From Thermus caldilimi (GTDB taxonomy: Bacteria; Deinococcota; Deinococci; Deinococcales; Thermaceae): a stretch of DNA of 64,000 nt. Location of the stretch: positions 1,846,796 to 1,910,795 of the forward strand of contig NZ_CP038452.1 of assembly GCF_004684245.1 (NCBI RefSeq). Direction: 5' to 3'. Positions within the stretch are counted from its first letter, which is position 1; the number at the start of each line of letters is the position of its first letter. A model generated the notes under the pieces. It had not been told where the DNA came from and did not search any database. It worked only from the letters and a program-made list of their open reading frames with translations. Position numbers and translations under genes: made by a program. Below are positions 4,816-16,595 of this stretch, piece by piece.

Positions 4816-5622
4816 ATGCGCTTTGCCCTGGCGCCCCTCCTGCTGGCCCTGGCTTCGGTTCCCGCCCTGGGGCTTAGGCTCGCCACCACCACCAGCGTCT
4901 ACGACTCGGGGCTTTTGGACCGGCTTTTGCCGGCCTTTGAGCGGGCCACGGGGGTTCGGGTGGAGGTTTTGGCCGTGGGCACGGGGCAGGCTTTGCGGCT
5001 GGCCGAGCGCAAGGATGTGGATGGGGTCCTGGTCCATGCCCCGGACCTCGAGGGGGAAGCCTTGAAGCGCGGTATCATCGCCCAGCCCTTCTGCCTGGCC
5101 CAGAATAGCTTCCTCCTGGTGGGGCCCCAAAGGGATCCCGCCCGGATCCGGGAGGTGGGGGATGTCCTGGAGGCCTTGCGGCGGATCGCCCGGGCCCAGG
5201 CCCCCTTCGTGTCCCGGGGGGACCGCTCGGGCACCCACCTGAAGGAGCTGGAGCTCTGGCGGAAGGCAGGCATAACCCCCCAAGGGGGCTGGTACCTGGA
5301 GTCAGGGGCGGGCATGGGTCAGACCCTGGTTCTGGCGGCGGAGAAGGGAGCCTATACCCTCTCCGACCTGGCCACCCACCTTACCCTGGGCCGCAAGCTG
5401 GGCTTGGAGGCCCTTTATCGGCGGGAGGATCCCCTTCTCCTGAACCAGTACACCTACTACCTGGTGCCCCGTGGGGCCAAGGCGAAGGAGGCGGAAACCC
5501 TTCGCCGCTTCCTGGCCACGGAGGAGGCGGCCCGGTTGGTGGAGGGTTTGCGGGTGGAGGGGAGCCCGCTCTTTAAGCCCTTGAGGGGGCGGTGTATCAT
5601 CCCCGAGGGTGGAGGCCGCTGA
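4816..5622 (+). CDS. tupA: Tungstate ABC transporter, substrate-binding protein
   Basis: TupA captures tungstate in the periplasm with very high affinity and hands it to TupBC. The 268-residue protein starts with a signal peptide (MRFALAPLLLALASVPALG) and then the TupA signature ATTTSVYDSGLL at residues 23-34, where the Thr-Thr-Ser supplies the oxyanion-binding hydroxyls. SRGDRSGTHLKELELW near residue 133 is the second ligand segment. It is first in a tight tupABC operon (overlaps of 14 and 4 bp), 300 bp from a tungsten-dependent enzyme locus on the other strand, which supports tungstate rather than another anion. Confidence 0.93.
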   Translation: MRFALAPLLLALASVPALGLRLATTTSVYDSGLLDRLLPAFERATGVRVEVLAVGTGQALRLAERKDVDGVLVHAPDLEGEALKRGIIAQPFCLAQNSFLLVGPQRDPARIREVGDVLEALRRIARAQAPFVSRGDRSGTHLKELELWRKAGITPQGGWYLESGAGMGQTLVLAAEKGAYTLSDLATHLTLGRKLGLEALYRREDPLLLNQYTYYLVPRGAKAKEAETLRRFLATEEAARLVEGLRVEGSPLFKPLRGRCIIPEGGGR

Positions 5623-6244
5623 GCTTTTAGAAATCTCCTGGCGCAGCCTCTGGGTAGCGGGGCTTGCCACCTTGTTGGCAGCTCTTCCCGCTGTGCCCTT
5701 GGGGCTTTGGCTGGCCTTGAAGGGGGGTGGGGGGATTTTCGGGCGGATTCTCCTTTACGCCGGCCTCGCCCTCCCCTCCGTGGTGGTGGGCCTTTTCTTT
5801 TACCTCCTTCTTTCCCGCTCGGGCCCTTTGGGATCCTTGGGTCTCCTCTACACCCCCTACGCCATGGTGCTGGCGGAGGTGGTCTTGGCTTTTCCCCTCA
5901 TTGCCGCCTTCGTGCTTTCGGGGGCCAGGGGTAGGGTGGAGGAGGTGCGGCTTCTAGTGCGGAGCCTGGGGGGTAAGGAGGGCCAGGTGCTTCCCACCCT
6001 GTTTTGGGAGAGCCGCCGCACCTTGGCCGCCGCCTTGGCTGCCGGCTTCGGCGGGGCCATCAGCGAGGTGGGGGCGGCCACCTTGGTGGGCGGGGACATC
6101 CGTCACCACACCCGGGTCCTCACCACGGCCATCGTGGTGGAAACCCGCAAGGGGGAGCTGGAAAGCGCCTTGGCCCTGGGGTTTATTCTCCTGGGGGTGG
6201 CCCTCTTGGTCACCGCCCTGCTGGTTGTCTTGGAGCGGGAATGA
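5609..6244 (+). CDS. tupB: Tungstate ABC transporter, permease
   Basis: The 211-residue protein has about five to six membrane helices and the binding-protein-dependent permease motif at VRSLGGKEGQVLPTLFW... GFGGAISEVGAATLVGGDI (EAA-loop region near residues 115-155). It forms the membrane channel of TupABC. The start GTG/ATG region overlaps the end of tupA by 14 bp, indicating translational coupling. Confidence 0.92.
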   Translation: MEAAELLEISWRSLWVAGLATLLAALPAVPLGLWLALKGGGGIFGRILLYAGLALPSVVVGLFFYLLLSRSGPLGSLGLLYTPYAMVLAEVVLAFPLIAAFVLSGARGRVEEVRLLVRSLGGKEGQVLPTLFWESRRTLAAALAAGFGGAISEVGAATLVGGDIRHHTRVLTTAIVVETRKGELESALALGFILLGVALLVTALLVVLERE

Positions 6245-6921
6245 GTCCGGTTTTGAAGGCCCAGGGGTTGGTCCACCGCTACGGGGCTTTCCGCCTCGAG
6301 GTTCCCTACCTCGAGGTCCACCCCGGGGAGATCCTGGCGGTCCTAGGGCCTTCGGGAAGCGGCAAAACCACCCTCCTCCGCCTCCTTGCCGGCCTCCTGT
6401 CCCCAGAGGAGGGTCAGGTGGAGGGGAAGTTCCGGGCCTACCTGCCCCAGACCCCACCCCTTCTTCGGCGTAGCGTCCTGGAAAACGCTGCCTTTGGCCT
6501 GTTGCTCCGGGGGGTGCCCCGGCGCCAGGCCCTGGCCCGGGCTGCCGGGCTCCTGGAACAGGTGGGTTTGGAGGGCAAGGCCCGTCAGCCCGCCCATCTC
6601 CTCTCCGGAGGGGAGGTGGTGCGCCTGGCCCTGGCCAGGACGCTTCTGGTGGAGCCTGCGGCCCTGCTACTGGACGAGCCCACCGCCAGCCTGGATCCCG
6701 CCAACACCCTTAAGGTGGAGGCCTTGCTCCAGGAGGCGGCCAAAGAGGGGCGGGGGGTGGTCCTGGCCACCCACGACCTCTTCCAGGTGCGCAGGCTGGC
6801 CCATCGGGTGGTCTTCCTCTTCCAGGGCCAGGTGGTGGAAGAAGCCCCTGTGGGCCGGTTTTTCCAAAGTCCAAAGGACTTTAGGAGCCAGGCCTTTTTG
6901 GAGGGGCGGTTGCTTCCTTAA
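6241..6921 (+). CDS. tupC: Tungstate ABC transporter, ATP-binding protein
   Basis: This 226-residue ATPase has Walker A GPSGSGKTT (residues 36-44), the signature LLSGGEVVRLALAR, Walker [14 protein letters not shown] and the switch His in LATHD. It powers tungstate uptake with TupA and TupB. I start it at ATG 6241, which overlaps the tupB stop by 4 bp; a longer upstream open frame exists but lacks ABC homology. The frame converges with the MoaD-like gene (stop codons overlap by 4 bp). Confidence 0.93.
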   Translation: MSPVLKAQGLVHRYGAFRLEVPYLEVHPGEILAVLGPSGSGKTTLLRLLAGLLSPEEGQVEGKFRAYLPQTPPLLRRSVLENAAFGLLLRGVPRRQALARAAGLLEQVGLEGKARQPAHLLSGGEVVRLALARTLLVEPAALLLDEPTASLDPANTLKVEALLQEAAKEGRGVVLATHDLFQVRRLAHRVVFLFQGQVVEEAPVGRFFQSPKDFRSQAFLEGRLLP

Positions 6922-7427
6922 CCGCCTCCCCGGGCCGCCGCCAGGCGGATCCGGCCGAACCAGGCCTCCGCCGCCTCCCCTTCCACCTCTACCTCGATCT
7001 GGGGGAGGGAAAGGCTTCCCACCCTTAAGGGTTCCGCCTCGGCGAAGCGCACCTGGGCCCCGGGGAGGGCGTAGACTCCCTCCCCCAGCTTTCTCCCGCC
7101 CCATTCCCTGAGGTATCTTTCCAAGAGCCAGGCGGGCAAAGCCCCGAAGCGCCGGGCAAAGGTTCCGCCCGCCACCGGGGGGAAGAGGTCCAAGGTGGCT
7201 TCCTCCGTCAAGGGGGTGGCAAGCCCGTTTAGGTAGCGCACATCCCGGCCCTCCAGGAAAACCGATACCCGCTCGGCCAGGTCCTCACCTTCAAAGAGCT
7301 CCTCCTTTAGGGCCGGATAGGCCTGGATCAGGGCCTCCAAAACCTCCCCGACCGTCCTTCCCCCCACCTGGACCTGGCCCTTGCCCACCAGGTCCCGGAA
7401 GGTGGCGTACAGGTTCACCTTAGGCAT
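6918..7427 (-). CDS. MoaD-related ubiquitin-like protein with C-terminal extension
   Basis: Residues 1-88 form a MoaD/ThiS-type ubiquitin-like fold beginning MPKVNLYATFRDLVGKG and ending in the usual PPVAGG at 83-88. MoaD normally ends there and carries sulfur as a thiocarboxylate for molybdopterin synthesis. Here about 80 more residues follow, matching the MoaD-related C-terminal domain (DUF1952-like) known in Thermus proteins, and the protein itself ends RGGG. It is downstream of the aldehyde ferredoxin oxidoreductase gene on the same strand but separated by a terminator hairpin (7442-7471). A role in tungstopterin supply is inferred from context. Confidence 0.8.
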   Translation of the reverse strand: MPKVNLYATFRDLVGKGQVQVGGRTVGEVLEALIQAYPALKEELFEGEDLAERVSVFLEGRDVRYLNGLATPLTEEATLDLFPPVAGGTFARRFGALPAWLLERYLREWGGRKLGEGVYALPGAQVRFAEAEPLRVGSLSLPQIEVEVEGEAAEAWFGRIRLAAARGGG

Positions 7428-7483: not shown

Positions 7484-9310
7484 TTAGTCGTCCGCGGCGG
7501 CGGAGAGGATGCCCAAGGCCTGGAGCTTGGCCGGGGGTACCACCCCCTTATCCCAACCCCGCTCCTGGTAGTATTCCTGCAACATCAGGTCCAGCTCCGT
7601 GAGCTGGCCCTTGGAGCCTGCGCAGTCGGAAGGTTCCTTGAGGAAGCGCTCGGGCAGGTAGTCGGAGCCTTCCGCCCAGCCCGCCAGGTTGTTATAGTAG
7701 CGCTCCAGGTTGTAGATGCGCTCCCCGATGAGAAGGATCTCCTCGGGGGTCACGGGCCGGCCCCAGTAGGCGGCAAGTTGCTTGGCGTACTCCTCGGGGC
7801 CCTCGGCGAACTGGCTGAACTTGCAAAGGTCCAAGGAGTCGGTGAAGGCGGAGAGGTCCTGGAAGAGCTTGGTGAGCTTGCCTTTCCCCTCCCAGGCTAG
7901 GGGGTCGGTCTTGTAGGGGACGCCCAGGATCTCCGAGGCCGGGGTGTAGGCCCGGAGGTGGCAGGCCCCGCGGTTGGAGGTGGCGTAGGCGATGCCCATG
8001 CCCTTGAGGCCCCTTGGGTCGTAGGCGGGGATGGACTGCCCCTTGACCTCGAGGGAGAGCTCGGGGTGGCCGATGGCCTTGGCAAAGCGGGCGGGGCCTT
8101 CCGCCAGGCCATCACCTACCCCCCGGCGGTAGGCGATGGCCTCGATGGCGCGGGCCTCGCCCTCCTTGTCCCCAAAGCGGATCCCGTCAGGGCCCTGGTA
8201 GTAGCCCTTCTCCGTGGCCTCCATGAGGACGGCAATGGCGTTGCCCGTCTCGATGGTGTCCATCCCGTAGGCGTTGCAGAGGTAGATGGCGTAGCCGGTC
8301 CAGTCGGTGTCCGTGTGGCCGGAGTGGGCCCCCAAGGCCCAGGCGGATTCGTACTCGTAGGATTCAAAGCGGATGGCCTTGCCGTTGATGTGGACCTCCA
8401 CCATCTTCTTGCAGGCCACCGGGCAGGCGTGGCAGGTGTTGTCCTTGATGAGGCGGTGCTCGCGGATGTACTCCCCGGAGATGGTTTCCACCCCTTCAAT
8501 GCAGGTGTGCTGGGCGTTGAAGGTGGGTAGGGCTCCCATCACGTTGGTGATGTTCATGAGCACGTTGGTGCCGTAGAGGGAAAGCCCGCCCTTCTTGGGG
8601 GCGGTCACGTTCTTGGGGTCGTTGATGGTGGCCGAGGCCAGGCGGTCCGCTTCCCGCCAGAGCTCAGGGTCCTTGGGCTGGGGCATCTGGTCCTGCTTGC
8701 CCACCACCACGATGGCCTTGAGCTTCTTGCTCCCTGCCACCGCCCCGGTGCCCCCGCGGCCGGCAGCCCGCTCGTCGTTGTTGATCCAGTTGGCGAAGCG
8801 GACCAGGTTCTCCCCCGCGGGGCCGATGGCCATCACGTCGGCCTCCTCCCCGTGGCGTTCCCGCAGGATGCGGTGGGTTTCATGGGTGGTCTTGCCCCAA
8901 AGGCCTGAGGCATCGTGGATGGTGACCTCTCCGTCCTTTACCAGCAGGTAAACGGGTTTATCCGAGGCTCCTTTGATGAGGAGCCCGTCAAACCCCGCCC
9001 ACTTCAGCTTGGCCGCGGTCCAGCCCCCCATGTGGCTATCCGTGACCGTGCCCGTGAGGGGGCTTTTGGTGACCACCGCCAGGCGCCCCGACATCTTGGC
9101 CCGAGTGCCGGAAAGGGGGCCATTCATGATGCAGAGGAGGTTATCGGGGCCAAAGGGGTCTACTTTGGGCCCGTTTTCAAACACGTACTTGACCCCTAGA
9201 CCCCTTCCGCCCACATACATCTCCAGGTCCTTGGGATCGGGGGCGAAGTACTCCACCTGGCCTGTCGAGAGGTTAATACGGGCGAGCTTATGGGCATATC
9301 CACCGAGCAT
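7484..9310 (-). CDS. aor: Tungsten-containing aldehyde:ferredoxin oxidoreductase
   Basis: AOR-family enzymes oxidise aldehydes to carboxylic acids using a bis-tungstopterin and a [4Fe-4S] cluster, passing electrons to ferredoxin. At 608 residues the length is typical. The cluster cysteines are C293, C296, C300 (CHACPVAC) and C496 (SLDLCKF), almost the same positions as in the Pyrococcus furiosus enzyme. MYVGGRGLGVKYVFE near residue 31 and NNDERAAGRGGTGAV near 178 match the pterin-binding regions. The neighbouring tupABC and MoaD-like genes support use of tungsten. The natural aldehyde is unknown; the 2-oxoacid ferredoxin oxidoreductase at 32-35 kb shows ferredoxin metabolism in this organism. 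Confidence 0.94.
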   Translation of the reverse strand: MLGGYAHKLARINLSTGQVEYFAPDPKDLEMYVGGRGLGVKYVFENGPKVDPFGPDNLLCIMNGPLSGTRAKMSGRLAVVTKSPLTGTVTDSHMGGWTAAKLKWAGFDGLLIKGASDKPVYLLVKDGEVTIHDASGLWGKTTHETHRILRERHGEEADVMAIGPAGENLVRFANWINNDERAAGRGGTGAVAGSKKLKAIVVVGKQDQMPQPKDPELWREADRLASATINDPKNVTAPKKGGLSLYGTNVLMNITNVMGALPTFNAQHTCIEGVETISGEYIREHRLIKDNTCHACPVACKKMVEVHINGKAIRFESYEYESAWALGAHSGHTDTDWTGYAIYLCNAYGMDTIETGNAIAVLMEATEKGYYQGPDGIRFGDKEGEARAIEAIAYRRGVGDGLAEGPARFAKAIGHPELSLEVKGQSIPAYDPRGLKGMGIAYATSNRGACHLRAYTPASEILGVPYKTDPLAWEGKGKLTKLFQDLSAFTDSLDLCKFSQFAEGPEEYAKQLAAYWGRPVTPEEILLIGERIYNLERYYNNLAGWAEGSDYLPERFLKEPSDCAGSKGQLTELDLMLQEYYQERGWDKGVVPPAKLQALGILSAAADD

Positions 9311-9443: not shown

Positions 9444-10364
9444 ATGCTGGCCCTTTTGGGGGAGGTCCTGGTGGACCTCATTCAGGAAAGCCAAGACCCC
9501 CTGCGCTTCAGGGGGGTCCTTGGAGGCTCGGCGCTCAACACCGCCACCACTCTGGCCCGGTTGGGGTTTCCCGTGGGTTTCCTTTCCGAGGTGGGGGAGG
9601 ACTGGGTTTCCGCCTGGAGCGTGGAGGAGATGAGAAGGCGGGGCCTCGAGCTTAGGCTTTTCCGCCATCCCGCCCCCATGCCCCTGGCCCTGGTGCGCCT
9701 GGATGCGGAGGGAAATGGGGAGTATAGCTTCCACCGTCCCTTTCATCTGCCCTACCACCCAGGGCCTGAAAGCCTTCGGGGAGCCAGGGTGTTCCACTTC
9801 GGCTCCCTCCTGGCCCTCGAGGATCGCGTGGAGGAAGGCTTGAGCCTCCTTTTGCAGGAAGCGGAGGAGGAGGGAGCTTGGGTATCCTACGACCCCAACC
9901 TCCGCCGTTCCCCTACCCCCAAGGAAAAGCAGCGGATAAAAGCCTATCTGGACCGGATAGACCTGTTGAAGCTTTCCCTGGAAGACGCCAAGCTTCTTTT
10001 CCCTGAAGACCCCGTGGGGGCGGTGAAGGCCCTGGGTGTACTCCTAAAGGTCCTCACCCTGGGCCGGGAAGGGGCGGTGGCCTTCTTGGGAAAAGAGGCG
10101 GTGCGCCTCCCCGGAAAGGCGGTGAGGGTGAAGGATACCGTGGGAGCGGGGGATGCCTTTACCGCCGGGCTCCTGGCCCTTCTTCTCCGAAAGGGCTACG
10201 ATAAAGAAAGCCTTCCCCACCTGTCCTTGCCGGAACTAAGGGAGATCCTGGAGGGCGCCATCGCCCTCTCCGCCCTGGCCTGCACCGTGCGGGGGGCCTA
10301 CCTGCCCGAGGAGGGGCTTCGCGCCTGGCGGGGGCGCTTTTTGGGGGGTGGGGGCCTCCTTTGA
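9444..10364 (+). CDS. PfkB-family carbohydrate kinase (fructokinase/KDG-kinase-like)
   Basis: The 306-residue protein shows both PfkB signatures: GGSALNTATTLARLG near residue 27 and the ATP/catalytic DTVGAGDAFTAGLLALLL near residue 230, where the second Asp is the catalytic base. It phosphorylates a sugar or sugar acid; fructose or 2-keto-3-deoxygluconate are the common substrates of this subgroup, but I cannot decide between them. A CATAAT box at 9432 sits 12 bp before the ATG, so the mRNA is probably leaderless. It diverges from aor. Confidence 0.85.
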   Translation: MLALLGEVLVDLIQESQDPLRFRGVLGGSALNTATTLARLGFPVGFLSEVGEDWVSAWSVEEMRRRGLELRLFRHPAPMPLALVRLDAEGNGEYSFHRPFHLPYHPGPESLRGARVFHFGSLLALEDRVEEGLSLLLQEAEEEGAWVSYDPNLRRSPTPKEKQRIKAYLDRIDLLKLSLEDAKLLFPEDPVGAVKALGVLLKVLTLGREGAVAFLGKEAVRLPGKAVRVKDTVGAGDAFTAGLLALLLRKGYDKESLPHLSLPELREILEGAIALSALACTVRGAYLPEEGLRAWRGRFLGGGGLL

Positions 10365-10366
10365 GG

Positions 10367-10372
10367 TAAAAT
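10367..10372 (+). promoter_or_regulatory. -10 box (TAAAAT) for the BtuCD-type importer operon
   Basis: TAAAAT overlaps the end of the kinase gene by 3 bp downstream of its stop and would start transcription at about 10379, exactly where the folded leader described next begins. Confidence 0.4.
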
Positions 10373-10378
10373 CGGCCT

Positions 10379-10480
10379 GCCTCCGAGCCCGGATAGACCC
10401 CTTGGGCCTTCCGGGCCGGGCCGGATGGCCCCGGGGTGGCGGGGGCAACCCTGCCGCCTGCCGCGGTTGCAAAGGAGGTG
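10379..10480 (+). promoter_or_regulatory. Candidate Moco/tungsten-cofactor riboswitch in the importer leader
   Basis: The 100-nt leader of the importer operon can fold in the order of the Moco RNA motif. P1 is CCTCC (10380-10384) with GGAGG (10474-10478), followed on the 5' side by GAGCC. P2 is CCCGG (10388-10392) with CCGGG (about 10431-10435), enclosing a GGCC hairpin. A GGCGG/CCGCC hairpin (10438-10442 with 10454-10458) and a 14-nt linker ending in AA lead back to P1, as in the E. coli moaA leader as I remember it. The 3' strand of P1 is the ribosome binding site AAAGGAGGTG, so cofactor binding would block translation. Alternatives are a degenerate cobalamin element or an unrelated GC-rich leader. 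Confidence 0.5.
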
Positions 10481-10486
10481 TTGGAC

Positions 10487-11527
10487 GTGCCCCAAAATCC
10501 CCATCGGCGTGCGTTTCTCAGGACCGTAGCCTCCCTGGCCTTTCTCCCCTTGCTCGGCAGGGCCCAGGGTGGGGCCCGGCTCACCCGCCTTTTCGGTCCC
10601 CCCCTGCGGGGTCCGGTGCGCCGGGTTTTCGTGGCCGGGCCGCCCGCGGCGGTCATGGCCTATGTCCTGGCCCCGGAGAAGCTCCTGGGCTGGCCCACCC
10701 GGTTGGGGCAGGAGGCCTTGGCCTACCTGTTGCCCGAGGTAAGGGGGCTTCCCGTCTACGGGCGGTTGGTGGGCAGTTCAGCCACGGTCTCCGTGGAAAC
10801 CCTCCTCGCGCAAAAGCCCGACCTCATCCTGGACGTGGGCACCGTGGACGCCACCTATCTTTCTGCGGCGGAGCGCATCTCGTCCCAGACGGGCATTCCT
10901 TACGCCTTGGTGGACGGCCGCCTGACGGAGAGCGCGGAGCAGCTTCTGGAGGTGGGCCAGCTCCTCGGGGTGGAGGACCGAGCCCGGCGGCTGGCTGCCT
11001 ACGCCCGGGTGGCCCTGGCCGAGGCCGCCCGCTACCGGGCCCGCTCGGGGCCCAAACCCAAAGTCTACCTGGCCCGTACGGCGAGCGGTCTGGAAACCGG
11101 CCTCGGGGGCTCCATCAACGTGGAGGTCATCGAGGTGGCGGGTGGGGTCAACGTGACCGCAGCCGCAGGCCGGGGCGGGCTCACCCGGGTTTCCTTTGAG
11201 CAACTCCTGGCCTGGCAGCCGGACCTGATCCTCACCCAAGACGCCTCGTTCTTCCAGCTGGCCCGGCAAGATCCCCTCTGGCGCCGCCTCAAGGCGGTGC
11301 AGACCGGGCAGCTCTACCTGGTGCCCAGCCTGCCCTTCGGCTGGCTGGACGGGCCCCCGGGGGTGAACCGTCTCCTGGGCCTGCGTTGGCTGGTCCGTCG
11401 GCTGAACGCGGGGGTAGAGCCCCTGGACTGGCGGGTGGAAACCTGGCTCTTCTACCGCCTCTTCTACGGCCTCGAGCCGAGCGCCCAGCAACTGGAGGCC
11501 CTCCTGGCGGGCCTGCAAGGGGGTTGA
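10487..11527 (+). CDS. BtuF/MolA-type ABC importer, substrate-binding protein
   Basis: This 346-residue binding protein belongs to the iron-siderophore/cobalamin/MolA class (class III) with two lobes; KPDLILDVGTVDATYLSAAE near residue 106 and QPDLILTQDASFF near 243 are the paired lobe motifs. The N-terminus PHRRAFLRTVASLAFLPLLG has a twin-arginine look. The C-terminal FGWLDGPPGVNRLLGLRWL is a pattern I associate with MolA-like molybdate/tungstate binders, but it also occurs in proteins labelled iron transporters. GTG 10487 was chosen because AAAGGAGGTG precedes it by 6 nt. The Moco-like leader and the tungsten genes nearby favour an oxyanion or metal-chelate cargo. Confidence 0.85.
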   Translation: MPQNPHRRAFLRTVASLAFLPLLGRAQGGARLTRLFGPPLRGPVRRVFVAGPPAAVMAYVLAPEKLLGWPTRLGQEALAYLLPEVRGLPVYGRLVGSSATVSVETLLAQKPDLILDVGTVDATYLSAAERISSQTGIPYALVDGRLTESAEQLLEVGQLLGVEDRARRLAAYARVALAEAARYRARSGPKPKVYLARTASGLETGLGGSINVEVIEVAGGVNVTAAAGRGGLTRVSFEQLLAWQPDLILTQDASFFQLARQDPLWRRLKAVQTGQLYLVPSLPFGWLDGPPGVNRLLGLRWLVRRLNAGVEPLDWRVETWLFYRLFYGLEPSAQQLEALLAGLQGG

Positions 11528-11528
11528 G

Positions 11529-12554
11529 ATGCGTCCCCTGGCCCAGGGTTCCTGGGGCTTTCCCGTGGGGAAGCGGTCCCATGGGGTGATCTTCGCCTTT
11601 CTCCTCCTGCTCCTCCTGGTCGCTGGGGTGTGGGCTTTGGCTGTGGGCCAGTACGCCCTGTCCCTGAGGGAGGTGGGGGAGGTCTTCTTGGGGCGGTCGA
11701 CGGAGACCGCCCAGGTGGTAATCCTCGGGGTGCGCCTTCCCCGGGTTCTGGCGGCGGCGCTGGTGGGGGCGGCCCTGGCCCTGGCCGGGGCCGCCTACCA
11801 GACCCTCTTCCGCAACCCCCTGGCCGCCCCCGACGTCCTGGGGGCCTCTGCGGGGGCAGGGTTTGGCGCCTCCTTGGCCATCCTCCTTTCCTTGCCCCTC
11901 CTGCTCGTCCAGTGGATGGCCTTCCTGGGGGGGCTCCTCGCGGTGGGGCTGGTCTACCTGGTGGCCCGGATGGTGCGGCGGCACGACCCCGTGCTGGTCC
12001 TCGTCCTGAGCGGGGTAGCGGTGGGCACGCTGTTCTCCTCGGGGATTTCCCTGGTCAAGGTGCTGGCGGACCCCAGCGTGCAACTACCCTCCCTCACCTT
12101 CTGGCTCATGGGGGGGCTGAACGGGGTGAACGCCCAGGTGTTGCCGCCCTTGGCGGCCCTGGTGGCCCTAGGGGCCTTGCCCCTCTTCCTCCTCCGCTGG
12201 CGGCTTAACCTCCTGAGCCTTCCCGACGAGGAGGCCCTGGCCCTGGGGGCCAACGTGGCCGCCCTGCGGGCAGGAGTGGTGGCCTCGGCCACCCTCATGA
12301 CCGCGGCGGCGGTTTCCGTCACGGGGATCATCGGCTGGGTGGGTCTGGTGGTGCCCCACGCGGCCCGGCTCCTGGTGGGCCCGGAGCTGTCCCGCCTCCT
12401 GCCTGCCTCCGCGCTTTTGGGCGGGGGATTCCTCCTGGTGGCGGACACCCTGGCCCGGACCCTGGCCGCCATGGAGATCCCCTTGGGGATCCTCACCGCC
12501 TTGGTGGGGGTTCCGGCCTTTCTCTTCCTCCTGGCTCGAGGGGGTCGGGGATGA
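11529..12554 (+). CDS. BtuC/FecCD-type ABC importer permease
   Basis: The 341-residue protein has the about ten helices and the conserved pieces of the FecCD family: LRLPRVLAAALVGAALALAG (seen here as VRLPRVLAAAL), FRNPLAAPDVLGASAGAGFG near residue 95, and GWVGLVVPHAARLLVGP near 265. It forms the channel of the class II importer with the preceding binding protein, starting 1 bp after its stop, and with the ATPase, whose gene it overlaps by 4 bp. Confidence 0.92.
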   Translation: MRPLAQGSWGFPVGKRSHGVIFAFLLLLLLVAGVWALAVGQYALSLREVGEVFLGRSTETAQVVILGVRLPRVLAAALVGAALALAGAAYQTLFRNPLAAPDVLGASAGAGFGASLAILLSLPLLLVQWMAFLGGLLAVGLVYLVARMVRRHDPVLVLVLSGVAVGTLFSSGISLVKVLADPSVQLPSLTFWLMGGLNGVNAQVLPPLAALVALGALPLFLLRWRLNLLSLPDEEALALGANVAALRAGVVASATLMTAAAVSVTGIIGWVGLVVPHAARLLVGPELSRLLPASALLGGGFLLVADTLARTLAAMEIPLGILTALVGVPAFLFLLARGGRG

Positions 12555-13336
12555 GCCTCGAGGCCCGCGGGCTTGGCGTGGGCTACCGGGGGCGGCCTGT
12601 GCTCTGGGACCTGGACCTGCGGGTGGCCTCCGGGGAGGTGGTGGCTCTCCTGGGGCCCAACGGGGCGGGCAAGACCACCCTCGTCCGCACCCTCCTGGGG
12701 CTCCTACCCCCCCTTGCCGGAGGGGTGTACCTGGAGGGCCAGCCCCTGGCCCGTTACCCCCGTCCCCTCCTGGCCCGGAGGTTGGCCTACGTACCCCAGG
12801 CCCACCAGGGGGTTTTCCCCTTCACCGTGGAGGAGGTGGTCCTCATGGGGCGCACCGCCCACCTGGGCCCCTTCGCCCTGCCCTCGGCCCGAGATCGGGA
12901 ACGGGCCTGGCAGGCCCTGGAGGCCCTGGGCATCGCCCACCTGGCCCACCGACCCTACACGGAGGTAAGTGGCGGGGAACGTCAGCTGGCCCTCCTGGCC
13001 CGGGCCCTGGCCCAGGAAGCGGAGGTCCTCATCCTGGACGAACCCACCTCCTACCTGGACTTTGGCAATCAGCTGCGGGTTCTGGACCAGATCCGTTTCC
13101 TAAAGGAGCAGGGCAAGGCCGTTCTTTTCAGCACCCACCAGCCGGAGCATGCCCGGGAAGTGGCGGACCGGGTGCTCCTCCTGGGCCAGGGGGAGGTCCT
13201 GGGGGAGGGGCCTCCAGGGACCCTCCTCACCCCCGAGCGCTTGGCCCAGCTCTACCGGGTGCCCCCGGAGCGGATCGCCCTCTACCTGCGGGAGGTGTCC
13301 CGTGGCCATGACCCCGGAGCAAGCCGAACGCTTTGA
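12551..13336 (+). CDS. BtuD/FecE-type ABC importer ATP-binding protein
   Basis: The 261-residue ATPase has Walker A GPNGAGKTT near residue 34, signature VSGGERQLALLARALAQ and Walker B LILDEPTSYLDFGNQ typical of the FecE/BtuD group. It energises the importer encoded just upstream. Its 3' end overlaps the methyltransferase gene by 29 bp. Confidence 0.92.
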   Translation: MSLEARGLGVGYRGRPVLWDLDLRVASGEVVALLGPNGAGKTTLVRTLLGLLPPLAGGVYLEGQPLARYPRPLLARRLAYVPQAHQGVFPFTVEEVVLMGRTAHLGPFALPSARDRERAWQALEALGIAHLAHRPYTEVSGGERQLALLARALAQEAEVLILDEPTSYLDFGNQLRVLDQIRFLKEQGKAVLFSTHQPEHAREVADRVLLLGQGEVLGEGPPGTLLTPERLAQLYRVPPERIALYLREVSRGHDPGASRTL

Positions 13337-14093
13337 CCGCTTCCGCCGCTACCCTCCCAAGGTAGCGGCAGCCATTGCCCAGGCCATCCTTCAGGCCCTG
13401 CCCCAAGGGGAGGCCCCGCCCACCCTGCTGGAGATCGGGGCGGGCACGGGGACCATGGCCCTGCCCCTCCTGCGCCTGGGGTGCCGCTACCTGGGCCTGG
13501 ACCAGGACCCGGAGATGCTGCGGCGTTTCCGGGAAAAGGCGGCCGGGCTTTCGGGCTGGGAGCTTCTCCTGGCGGACGCCCGGGCCATCCCCCTTCCCGG
13601 GGAGAGCCTGGACGGGGTCCTCCTGGTGCGCTTCTGGCACCTGGTGGAGGAGTGGGAGGCCGTTTTGCGGGAGGCCTTGCGGGTGCTGCGCCCAGGGGGG
13701 GTGCTCCTGGAAGGGTTTGAGCGGATCGCCTCCCCGGAGGAGGAGGCCCTTTTCCGCGTCTGGGAGTCGGCCTTGGGGTGGGAGGGGATAGGGGTGGAGC
13801 GGGGGCTCCACGGGCGGCGGCTTCAGGAGGTGGGGGAGGCCCTAAGGGCCTTAGGGCTCGCCCCCGAGGTGCGGGAGGTGGTGGCCTGGCGGGAGGAAAG
13901 ACCCCTGAGGGAGCTCCTGGAACTCTTGGAACACCGGGTCTTCCACTTCGCCCAGGAGGTGCCGGAGGCGGCCCACCGGCGGGCCATGGCCGCGGTCCGG
14001 GCCTGGGCCGAGGCCCGCTTCGGGGGCTTGGAGGCCCCCCTCCCCGCCGAGAAGCGCTTCTTCCTGCGGATAAGCCGCAAGGGGGCCCCATGA
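13308..14093 (+). CDS. Class I SAM-dependent methyltransferase
   Basis: The 261-residue protein has the SAM-binding motif LLEIGAGTGTMALPLL near residue 38, an acidic motif II (LGLDQDPEMLRRF), and LREALRVLRPGGVLLEGF as motif III. The target is unknown. It is fourth in the importer operon, with ATG 13308 inside the end of the ATPase gene, so it is translated with the importer. That linkage suggests it modifies an imported or exported small molecule, such as a metal chelator; this is inference only. Confidence 0.85.
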   Translation: MTPEQAERFDRFRRYPPKVAAAIAQAILQALPQGEAPPTLLEIGAGTGTMALPLLRLGCRYLGLDQDPEMLRRFREKAAGLSGWELLLADARAIPLPGESLDGVLLVRFWHLVEEWEAVLREALRVLRPGGVLLEGFERIASPEEEALFRVWESALGWEGIGVERGLHGRRLQEVGEALRALGLAPEVREVVAWREERPLRELLELLEHRVFHFAQEVPEAAHRRAMAAVRAWAEARFGGLEAPLPAEKRFFLRISRKGAP

Positions 14094-14875
14094 GGGGAGG
14101 GGTTCTCCTGGCCTTCCTGGTGGGCCTGGGGGTGGGGGCCTTCGGGGGGCTTTTGGGGCTTGGGGGGGCGGAGCTCAGGCTGCCCCTTCTCCTTTACCCC
14201 TTCGGCCTCGCTCCCCTGGAGGCGGTGATCGCCAACAAGGCCCTGAGCCTCCTGGTGGTGGGGGTGAGCCTACCCGCCCGCCTGGGCCACGTCCCCTGGG
14301 GGGAGGTCCTGGAGGGAGGAAGGCAGGCCCTGGCCCTCCTCATGGGGAGCGTCCTCGGGGCCTTTGGGGCCGCGGGCTGGGCCCGGAGGGTGCCCCCCGC
14401 CCTCCTGCGGCGGACCATGGGCCTCCTGCTCCTCCTCCTGGCCGGGGTCTTGGTTCTGGAAACCTTGGCCCGTGCGCAAGATCCCCTCCGCCTCTCCCCC
14501 CTCCTCCTCCAGGGGGTGGGCTTCCTCCTGGGCCTGGGCATCGGCGGGGTGGCGGCGGTGATGGGGGTGGCGGGAGGGGAGCTCCTCATCCCCACCCTGG
14601 TCCTGGTCTTCGGCCTCGAGCCCCGGCTGGCGGGGAGCGTTTCCCTCCTCATCAGCCTGCCCACCATGTTGGCGGCTTTCGCCCAGTACAGCCAGGACCG
14701 CACCTTCGCCGTGCTGTGGCGGCGGGGCGGGCTCCTTCTGGCCATGGGCCTGGGCTCCCTCCTGGGGGGAGCTTTGGGAGGCGGCCTCCTCCTGGGCTTG
14801 GTCACGGAGCGGGTTCTGCTCCTCCTCTTGGCCCTCCTCCTGGCCTTCTCCGGCCTCCGGCTCCTGGGCCACTGA
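14090..14875 (+). CDS. TSUP (TauE/SafE) family membrane transporter
   Basis: The 261-residue protein has the two related halves of the TSUP family: GLGVGAFGGLLGLGGAELRLP near residue 11 and GLGIGGVAAVMGVAGGELLIP near 148, each in a set of about four helices. Family members move sulfite, sulfonates or other organic anions out of or into the cell. It overlaps the methyltransferase stop by 4 bp and is the last gene of the five-gene operon that starts at 10487. The cargo is unknown. Confidence 0.85.
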   Translation: MRGGVLLAFLVGLGVGAFGGLLGLGGAELRLPLLLYPFGLAPLEAVIANKALSLLVVGVSLPARLGHVPWGEVLEGGRQALALLMGSVLGAFGAAGWARRVPPALLRRTMGLLLLLLAGVLVLETLARAQDPLRLSPLLLQGVGFLLGLGIGGVAAVMGVAGGELLIPTLVLVFGLEPRLAGSVSLLISLPTMLAAFAQYSQDRTFAVLWRRGGLLLAMGLGSLLGGALGGGLLLGLVTERVLLLLLALLLAFSGLRLLGH

Positions 14876-15886: not shown

Positions 15887-16267
15887 GTGAACCGGGCTAA
15901 GGACTGGCTTCTCCAGGCGGAATGGGACCTGGAGATGGCTGAGATCGCCCGGAAGGCAGGCCGGCACGAGTGGGCCTGTTTTGCCGCCCAGCAGGCCGCG
16001 GAGAAGGCGGTGAAAGCCCTCCACCTCCACCTGGACCAGGAGGCTTGGGGGCATGTGGTGGCCCGGCTTCTCAAGGAGTTACCCTTGGAGGTTCCTCAAG
16101 ACCTGGTGGAGAAAGCCCGCTACCTGGATGGGCTCTACATACCCACCCGGTACCCCGATGCTTTTCCCGAGGGGCCTTCTGCGGAGCACTATGGCCCCTT
16201 GCAAAGCCAGGAGGCGGTGCGCTATGCCCGTGAAATCCTTGAATTCTGCCGTGCTCAGATGGCCTAG
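15887..16267 (+). CDS. HEPN-domain protein (HEPN/MNT pair)
   Basis: The 126-residue helical protein matches minimal HEPN proteins: NRAKDWLLQAEWDLEMAEIA, then FAAQQAAEKAVKALHLHL, and the C-terminal EAVRYAREILEFCRAQ. HEPN proteins are often RNases held in check by a partner MNT nucleotidyltransferase. The RNase motif R-x4-6-H is not obvious here, so it may act only as a regulatory subunit. The start is GTG 15887 and the frame overlaps the MNT gene by 17 bp. Confidence 0.85.
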   Translation: MNRAKDWLLQAEWDLEMAEIARKAGRHEWACFAAQQAAEKAVKALHLHLDQEAWGHVVARLLKELPLEVPQDLVEKARYLDGLYIPTRYPDAFPEGPSAEHYGPLQSQEAVRYAREILEFCRAQMA

Positions 16268-16595
16268 CCGGGAAGAAGTGGAAGGTGCCCTTCAGGCCTG
16301 GATGATCCGCCACCCCATCCCCGGCCTCCTGGCCCTGGGCTACTTCGGTTCCTACGCCCGGGGCGACTACGGGGTGGGAAGCGACCTGGATCTCCTTTTG
16401 GTGGTGGAGTCCTCTTCCCTTCCTTCCTGGCAACGGGCCCTAACCCTGCCCCTAGAGGAGCTTCCCGTGCCTGCGGAGGCCTTGGTCTATACCCTGGCCG
16501 AGTGGCAGGCCCTGCCCGAAAGAACCCCCCGCTTTGCTGAAACCCTGAGGCGGGAGGTGCGCTGGCTCCTTCATCACCCCGCCCTTTCTCCCTAG
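16251..16595 (+). CDS. Minimal nucleotidyltransferase (MNT), partner of HEPN
   Basis: The 114-residue protein has the nucleotidyltransferase core GYFGSYARGDYGVGSDLDLLL near residue 28, with the Gly-Ser and Asp-x-Asp residues that bind Mg-ATP. In characterised pairs MntA transfers AMP onto the HEPN toxin and silences it. The start GTG 16251 lies inside the HEPN frame, so translation is coupled. The order HEPN then MNT is the standard arrangement. Confidence 0.85.
   Translation: MLRWPSREEVEGALQAWMIRHPIPGLLALGYFGSYARGDYGVGSDLDLLLVVESSSLPSWQRALTLPLEELPVPAEALVYTLAEWQALPERTPRFAETLRREVRWLLHHPALSP

Follow-up and report, generated by a model that had tools for sequence, protein, structure and literature searches.

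A Moco-class riboswitch in the leader of a probable molybdate or tungstate importer operon of Thermus caldilimi

What controls the BtuCD-type importer operon that lies next to tungsten genes in Thermus caldilimi, and what does this importer carry? The initial annotation had read the operon leader as a candidate Moco-type riboswitch. An all-Rfam scan of the window, i.e. the whole 64-kb stretch of DNA under analysis, gave a full-length match (model positions 1–135) to the Moco riboswitch family RF01055 at positions 10369–10493 of the forward strand. The candidate is borne out by a score of 54.1 bits, which exceeds the family's gathering threshold of 36 bits, and by an E-value of 3.7e-10, which was computed for 64 kb and 4227 families. 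RF01055 is the sole serious Rfam match within the window. Cobalamin and all other Rfam families yielded just three matches in the 64 kb, far under their own gathering scores, and none of these models competes with RF01055.

Helices P1 to P5 all form in the leader around the conserved junction, and all lie on the forward strand. P1 pairs positions 10379–10384 with 10474–10479 (GCCUCC/GGAGGU) and is connected to P2 by a GA joint. P2 (10387–10393 with 10410–10416) encloses an inner hairpin at 10398–10406, P3 (10418–10422 with 10427–10431) has a GGAU loop, and P4 is a GGCGG/CCGCC hairpin (10434–10444 with 10449–10459) capped by a GCAA tetraloop of the GNRA type (10445–10448). The two pairs of P5 (10460–10461 with 10469–10470) lie in the 14-nt return strand (10460–10473). 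The initial annotation had recognized P1, the joint, P2 with its inner hairpin, the GGCGG/CCGCC hairpin and the return strand, all of which recur in the RF01055 match, and had overlooked P3 as well as the GCAA loop of P4. P2, whose bulge would hold the tetraloop receptor, is shortened here, with four model positions deleted on each side; Moco RNAs with a GCAA loop have been described as being without a tetraloop receptor (Regulski 2008, PMC2408646).

To compare the leader with its relatives, the 26 copies found in the Thermaceae were aligned without reference to structure and then scored against the Rfam structure. Across these copies 98.9% of the cells are paired, and 7 of the 34 pairs (15 cells) show changes on both sides: two in P2 (97.1% paired), two in P3 (100% paired) and three in P4. 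None of 500 shuffles reached the observed pairing and both-side changes. When the partners were slid by 1–3 columns the pairing fell to 39–57%, and no slid version came near. The P4 loop reads GCAA, GTAA, GTGA or GCGA in 26/26 relatives, i.e. its letters vary and it is always GNRA. P5 is invariant in the relatives, and P1 is almost so (five of six pairs across 25 distinct relatives), which makes the alignment uninformative on P1 itself. The centroid structure of the leader includes P1, P2, P3 and P4. Its folding energy is unremarkable (z −1.25; 22 of 200 shuffles were equally stable) and, because the stretch is so G+C-rich, uninformative. Therefore, the case for a riboswitch stands on the profile and on the relatives.

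A survey of the family shows that a Moco RNA is ordinary in these bacteria and not new for Thermus, which tempers the novelty suggested by the initial annotation. It is present in 23 of 27 Thermus genomes and in 24 of 50 Thermaceae genomes, and 24 of the 26 Thermaceae copies lie 5′ of modA, including a second Moco RNA in the same genome (63 bits). The score of the importer leader falls inside the range of the modA copies. Moco RNAs from Deinococcus-Thermus had been reported already in 2008, and their link to molybdate transport is known (PMC2408646).

A −10-like box, TAAAAT, is located at 10367–10372 (+), 13 nt 5′ of the P1 CCTCC. The pattern TANNNT occurs 13–14 nt 5′ of this element in 26/26 Thermaceae Moco leaders, compared with a background of 1.2%, and this conserved position places the expected transcription start close to the first nucleotide of P1. 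A sigma-70 consensus scan found no promoter; the −10 box becomes visible through the comparison of leaders. At the importer leader there is no −35 box with four of six matches, whereas ten other Thermaceae Moco leaders do have one. Given the poor −35 box, the operon may be transcribed together with the kinase gene that lies upstream. Just 5′ of the promoter box, within the end of the kinase gene, we noted a terminator-like hairpin followed by TTTTT (10321–10337).

The Shine-Dalgarno sequence AAAGGAGGU (10471–10479, +) has its GGAGG core within the P1 3′ strand, which represents the expression platform, and GCAAAGGAGG is invariant in 26/26 copies. The earlier suggestion that P1 hides the ribosome binding site is thus supported. 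The likely start codon of the binding-protein gene is the GTG at 10487, 8 nt past GGAGG. Closure of P1 would bury the Shine-Dalgarno sequence of this gene, and a translational off-switch is therefore expected. An off-switch with the ribosome binding site in P1 has been proposed for the E. coli moaA RNA, for which Moco-dependent repression was reported (Regulski 2008, PMC2408646). When Moco is scarce, P1 would be open, the ribosome would read AAAGGAGGU and the importer would be made; when Moco is bound to the P1–P5 aptamer, P1 would close over GGAGG and translation of the binding protein would stop.

The operon begins with a molA-like gene (10487–11527) for a substrate-binding protein with a GTG start, an RR-type signal peptide and a Peripla_BP_2 domain (PF01497). 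It continues on the forward strand with genes for a molB-like permease of the FecCD type (11529–12554; PF01032), a molC-like ATPase (12551–13336; PF00005; 4-base overlap with molB), a SAM-dependent methyltransferase (13308–14093; PF08241; overlapping molC) and, as the last of the chain, a TauE/SafE-type permease (14090–14875; PF01925; overlapping the methyltransferase gene). Because overlaps or a 1-base gap join these genes from 10487 to 14875, co-repression of all five is expected, so that the permease, ATPase, methyltransferase and TauE genes would be turned down together with the binding-protein gene. The ligand, the direction of switching and the coupling of the genes are what we infer from this arrangement. 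No counterpart of the methyltransferase was found beside the importer relatives. The genome has moaA and seven stretches of the molybdopterin oxidoreductase family. At 15887–16595 we noticed by eye overlapping small frames that resemble HEPN and MNT-type nucleotidyltransferase proteins, a possible toxin-antitoxin pair.

Direct observation covers the match to RF01055, conservation of the fold, the placement of the Shine-Dalgarno sequence in P1, the promoter box and the molybdenum/tungsten (Mo/W) neighbourhood of the importer's relatives, which is described below. We propose, with a probability of roughly 0.8, that a P3-containing Moco-class riboswitch of family RF01055 serves as 5′ leader to an operon encoding a MolABC-like molybdate/tungstate importer and would close P1 over the ribosome binding site when Moco binds.

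The neighbouring genes raise the question of whether the RNA answers to tungsten instead. tupABC-like genes (4816–6921, +; NCBIfam TupA/TupB matches under the cut-off) lie upstream, as does an aldehyde ferredoxin oxidoreductase gene (7484–9310, −) that is kept in 26 of 27 genus genomes and adjoined by a MoaD-DUF1952 fusion gene (6918–7427, −) encoding a MoaD/SAMP1-like domain. In a published set of 176 RNAs, members that contain P3 are associated with Moco and those that lack it with the tungsten cofactor (Tuco), a rule that is a correlation (Regulski 2008, PMC2408646). The leader does not fit the P3-lacking Tuco subtype, since P3 is present here and fully paired in the relatives; judged by its sequence, the importer leader would belong to the P3-containing Moco subtype. 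Of the proposed link to adjacent tungsten genes, the genes themselves stand, while a tungsten-cofactor sensor is not implied. It is an unlikely but conceivable case that control crosses between the metals, either because a Moco-sensing P3 RNA governs an importer that chiefly provides tungstate to the neighbouring tungsten oxidoreductase or because the P3 rule fails and the RNA answers to the tungsten cofactor. To a sensor of Tuco as such, acting in step with the oxidoreductase and tup genes, we give only a small chance: these genes do adjoin and the P3 rule is only correlative, but P3 is conserved and the sister copies of the RNA control modA.

The substrate of the importer can be approached through its relatives. 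The best PDB match of the permease is 2nq2 (HI1471, MolB) with an E-value of 7.5e-61, the next match having 2.2e-49, and heme, hydroxamate and B12 permeases rank lower. Haemophilus influenzae MolBC-A (HI1470–1472) is a BtuCD-type (type II) molybdate/tungstate importer (PMC4031551). The match of the binding protein to HI_1472 (MolA) is significant and distant, with about 21–22% identity. Among its PDB relatives (4pag, 4ovk and HI_1472) the nearest is 4pag, which is named just a periplasmic binding protein. An AlphaFold2 model of the binding protein (pLDDT 88) gave tied Z-scores of 24.8 with HI_1472, 24.7 with YiuA and 25.9 with an iron-type binding protein, and for this reason the fold cannot separate molybdate from iron binders. 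HI_1472 is without the PFGWxDxPPxxNR motif of this binding-protein family, a motif that we observed in nearly all of the importer relatives (L050–L107).

A clearer signal comes from gene neighbourhoods. Mop/TOBE, ModA, TupA, MoeA or TrmO genes lie within about 3.2 kb of 39 of the 58 close importer relatives and near 0 of the 22 distant iron/B12-type relatives. The 58 close relatives stem from bacterial genomes, mostly alphaproteobacteria, and are non-independent, although the contrast with the distant set is still large. In two annotated neighbourhoods, genes for a gephyrin-like molybdotransferase (Glp), modA or TOBE genes adjoin the importer, whose components are annotated there as iron transporters. 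Many alphaproteobacteria carry members of this importer family (L050–L107) next to Mop, ModA or TupA genes, and these are probably Mo/W importers as well.

Two other importer types were examined and discarded. The vitamin B12 importer BtuCD-F fell short, with 217.8 of 461 bits for NCBIfam BtuC and 28 of 234 for BtuF, and no cobalamin riboswitch is present; siderophore importers did so with 193.9 of 849 bits for FhuB, 161.4 of 396 for FecC and 169.1 of 406 for FecD. As many of its relatives adjoin Mo/W genes and the permease is nearest to MolB, we infer that the importer most likely transports molybdate or tungstate and is not the siderophore-type system of the initial annotation. It is rather improbable that a genuine Moco riboswitch makes iron or B12 uptake depend on Mo-cofactor status by controlling an importer for an iron complex or corrinoid. 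The FecCD/Peripla_BP_2 family and the iron-binding proteins among the top fold matches would suit such an importer, but its relatives are located in Mo/W gene clusters, the BtuC, BtuF, FhuB and FecD cut-offs are missed widely, and MolB is the best permease match. With relatives in Mo/W clusters, feedback by Mo/W through the switch is to be expected rather than surprising.

How did this probable molybdate or tungstate importer come to lie behind a Moco RNA? It occurs in 2 of 111 genomes of the phylum, the other being that of Meiothermus granaticius (77% identity), which is the nearest relative to carry the complete importer and in which no Moco RNA was found. The rarity of the importer and its presence in M. 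granaticius without a Moco RNA indicate horizontal transfer, and the Mol-type operon was probably acquired in this way. The importer switch, in turn, is probably a second copy of the modA-leader switch that was kept in Thermus and became linked to the acquired importer.

An extra copy, not associated with modA, is found at the kinase-gene site in just two genomes, that of the window and G047. The orthologous RNA of G047 (L044, 7807–7931) matches the importer leader at 92% identity across 170 bases, a stretch that takes in the −10 box and the Shine-Dalgarno sequence. The kinase and aldehyde ferredoxin oxidoreductase genes precede it just as they do in the window; the importer genes are absent, and the RNA is followed by the very end of a methyltransferase-like reading frame (KGAP-stop) and a TauE/SafE gene. 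This arrangement fits a scenario in which G047 lost the importer and kept the switch; alternatively, the importer may have been gained in the window genome. In three other genomes the kinase gene is followed directly by a quinone-oxidoreductase-like gene, with neither switch nor importer in between.

Outside the genus, no Moco RNA was detected near importer relatives in 16 loci, and none that passed the cut-off turned up in the 14 whole genomes to which such loci led. In the rest of the phylum Moco RNAs precede modA, a moaA-like gene or a ferredoxin/NrfD operon, and six gammaproteobacterial Moco RNAs are all located 5′ of moaA-like genes. One deinococcotal genome (G099, L133) has a strong Moco RNA (77 bits) whose downstream neighbours are a pair of genes for a 4Fe-4S ferredoxin and an NrfD-type protein. 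The pairing of a Moco RNA with a Mol-type importer of the FecCD fold is found nowhere else among these loci, these genomes, the rest of the phylum and the gammaproteobacterial copies; beyond these sets, Moco RNAs are numerous in the Clostridia.

This distribution also bears on the idea that regulation of the importer has been lost, the leader being only a degenerate or bystander duplicate of the modA switch. It would account for an extra copy that is confined to two genomes and lacks the importer in one of them. We regard it as quite improbable, however, because both copies retain every conserved position together with an intact −10 box, P1 and Shine-Dalgarno sequence, and the score falls among those of the modA copies. 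A ligand-free fold produced by chance in G+C-rich sequence, in line with a folding energy no better than that of shuffles, is next to impossible, having been refuted already by the E-value of the profile match and the compensating changes in the relatives.

The proposed Moco-responsive leader resembles E. coli moaA-type RF01055 RNAs (PMC2408646) in its P1–P5 architecture, including P3, in its conserved junction and in the ribosome binding site within the P1 3′ strand. It differs in controlling a FecCD-type importer rather than moa or mod genes, in its GCAA tetraloop, as opposed to the usual GAAA, and in its shortened P2. With the Thermus modA-leader RNAs (L001 and 23 others) it shares the promoter-box position, the Shine-Dalgarno layout and an aptamer that is 75–94% identical, whereas those RNAs precede modA at a locus elsewhere in the genome. 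The importer itself is like H. influenzae MolBC-A in combining a FecCD permease, for which MolB is the closest PDB structure, with a Peripla_BP_2 binding protein, but the H. influenzae binding protein is only distantly similar and has no PFGWxDxPP motif.

What is new is hence the target operon, a rare Mol-type importer, the RNA class being already known. A 2018 survey of molybdenum transport counted only ModABC, WtpABC and TupABC in prokaryotes (PMC6147048), and the present analysis assigns a likely substrate to an importer family that is annotated as iron transporters. In H. influenzae, molybdate represses mol through a factor described as unknown, and no Moco RNA is named (PMC4031551). The same control problem may have found an RNA solution in T. 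caldilimi, one that is testable. For this one bacterium, the leader would offer a candidate RNA mechanism by which a Mol-type importer is switched off once molybdenum suffices, and it represents a riboswitch at a second genomic site that occurs both with and without an importer of its own.
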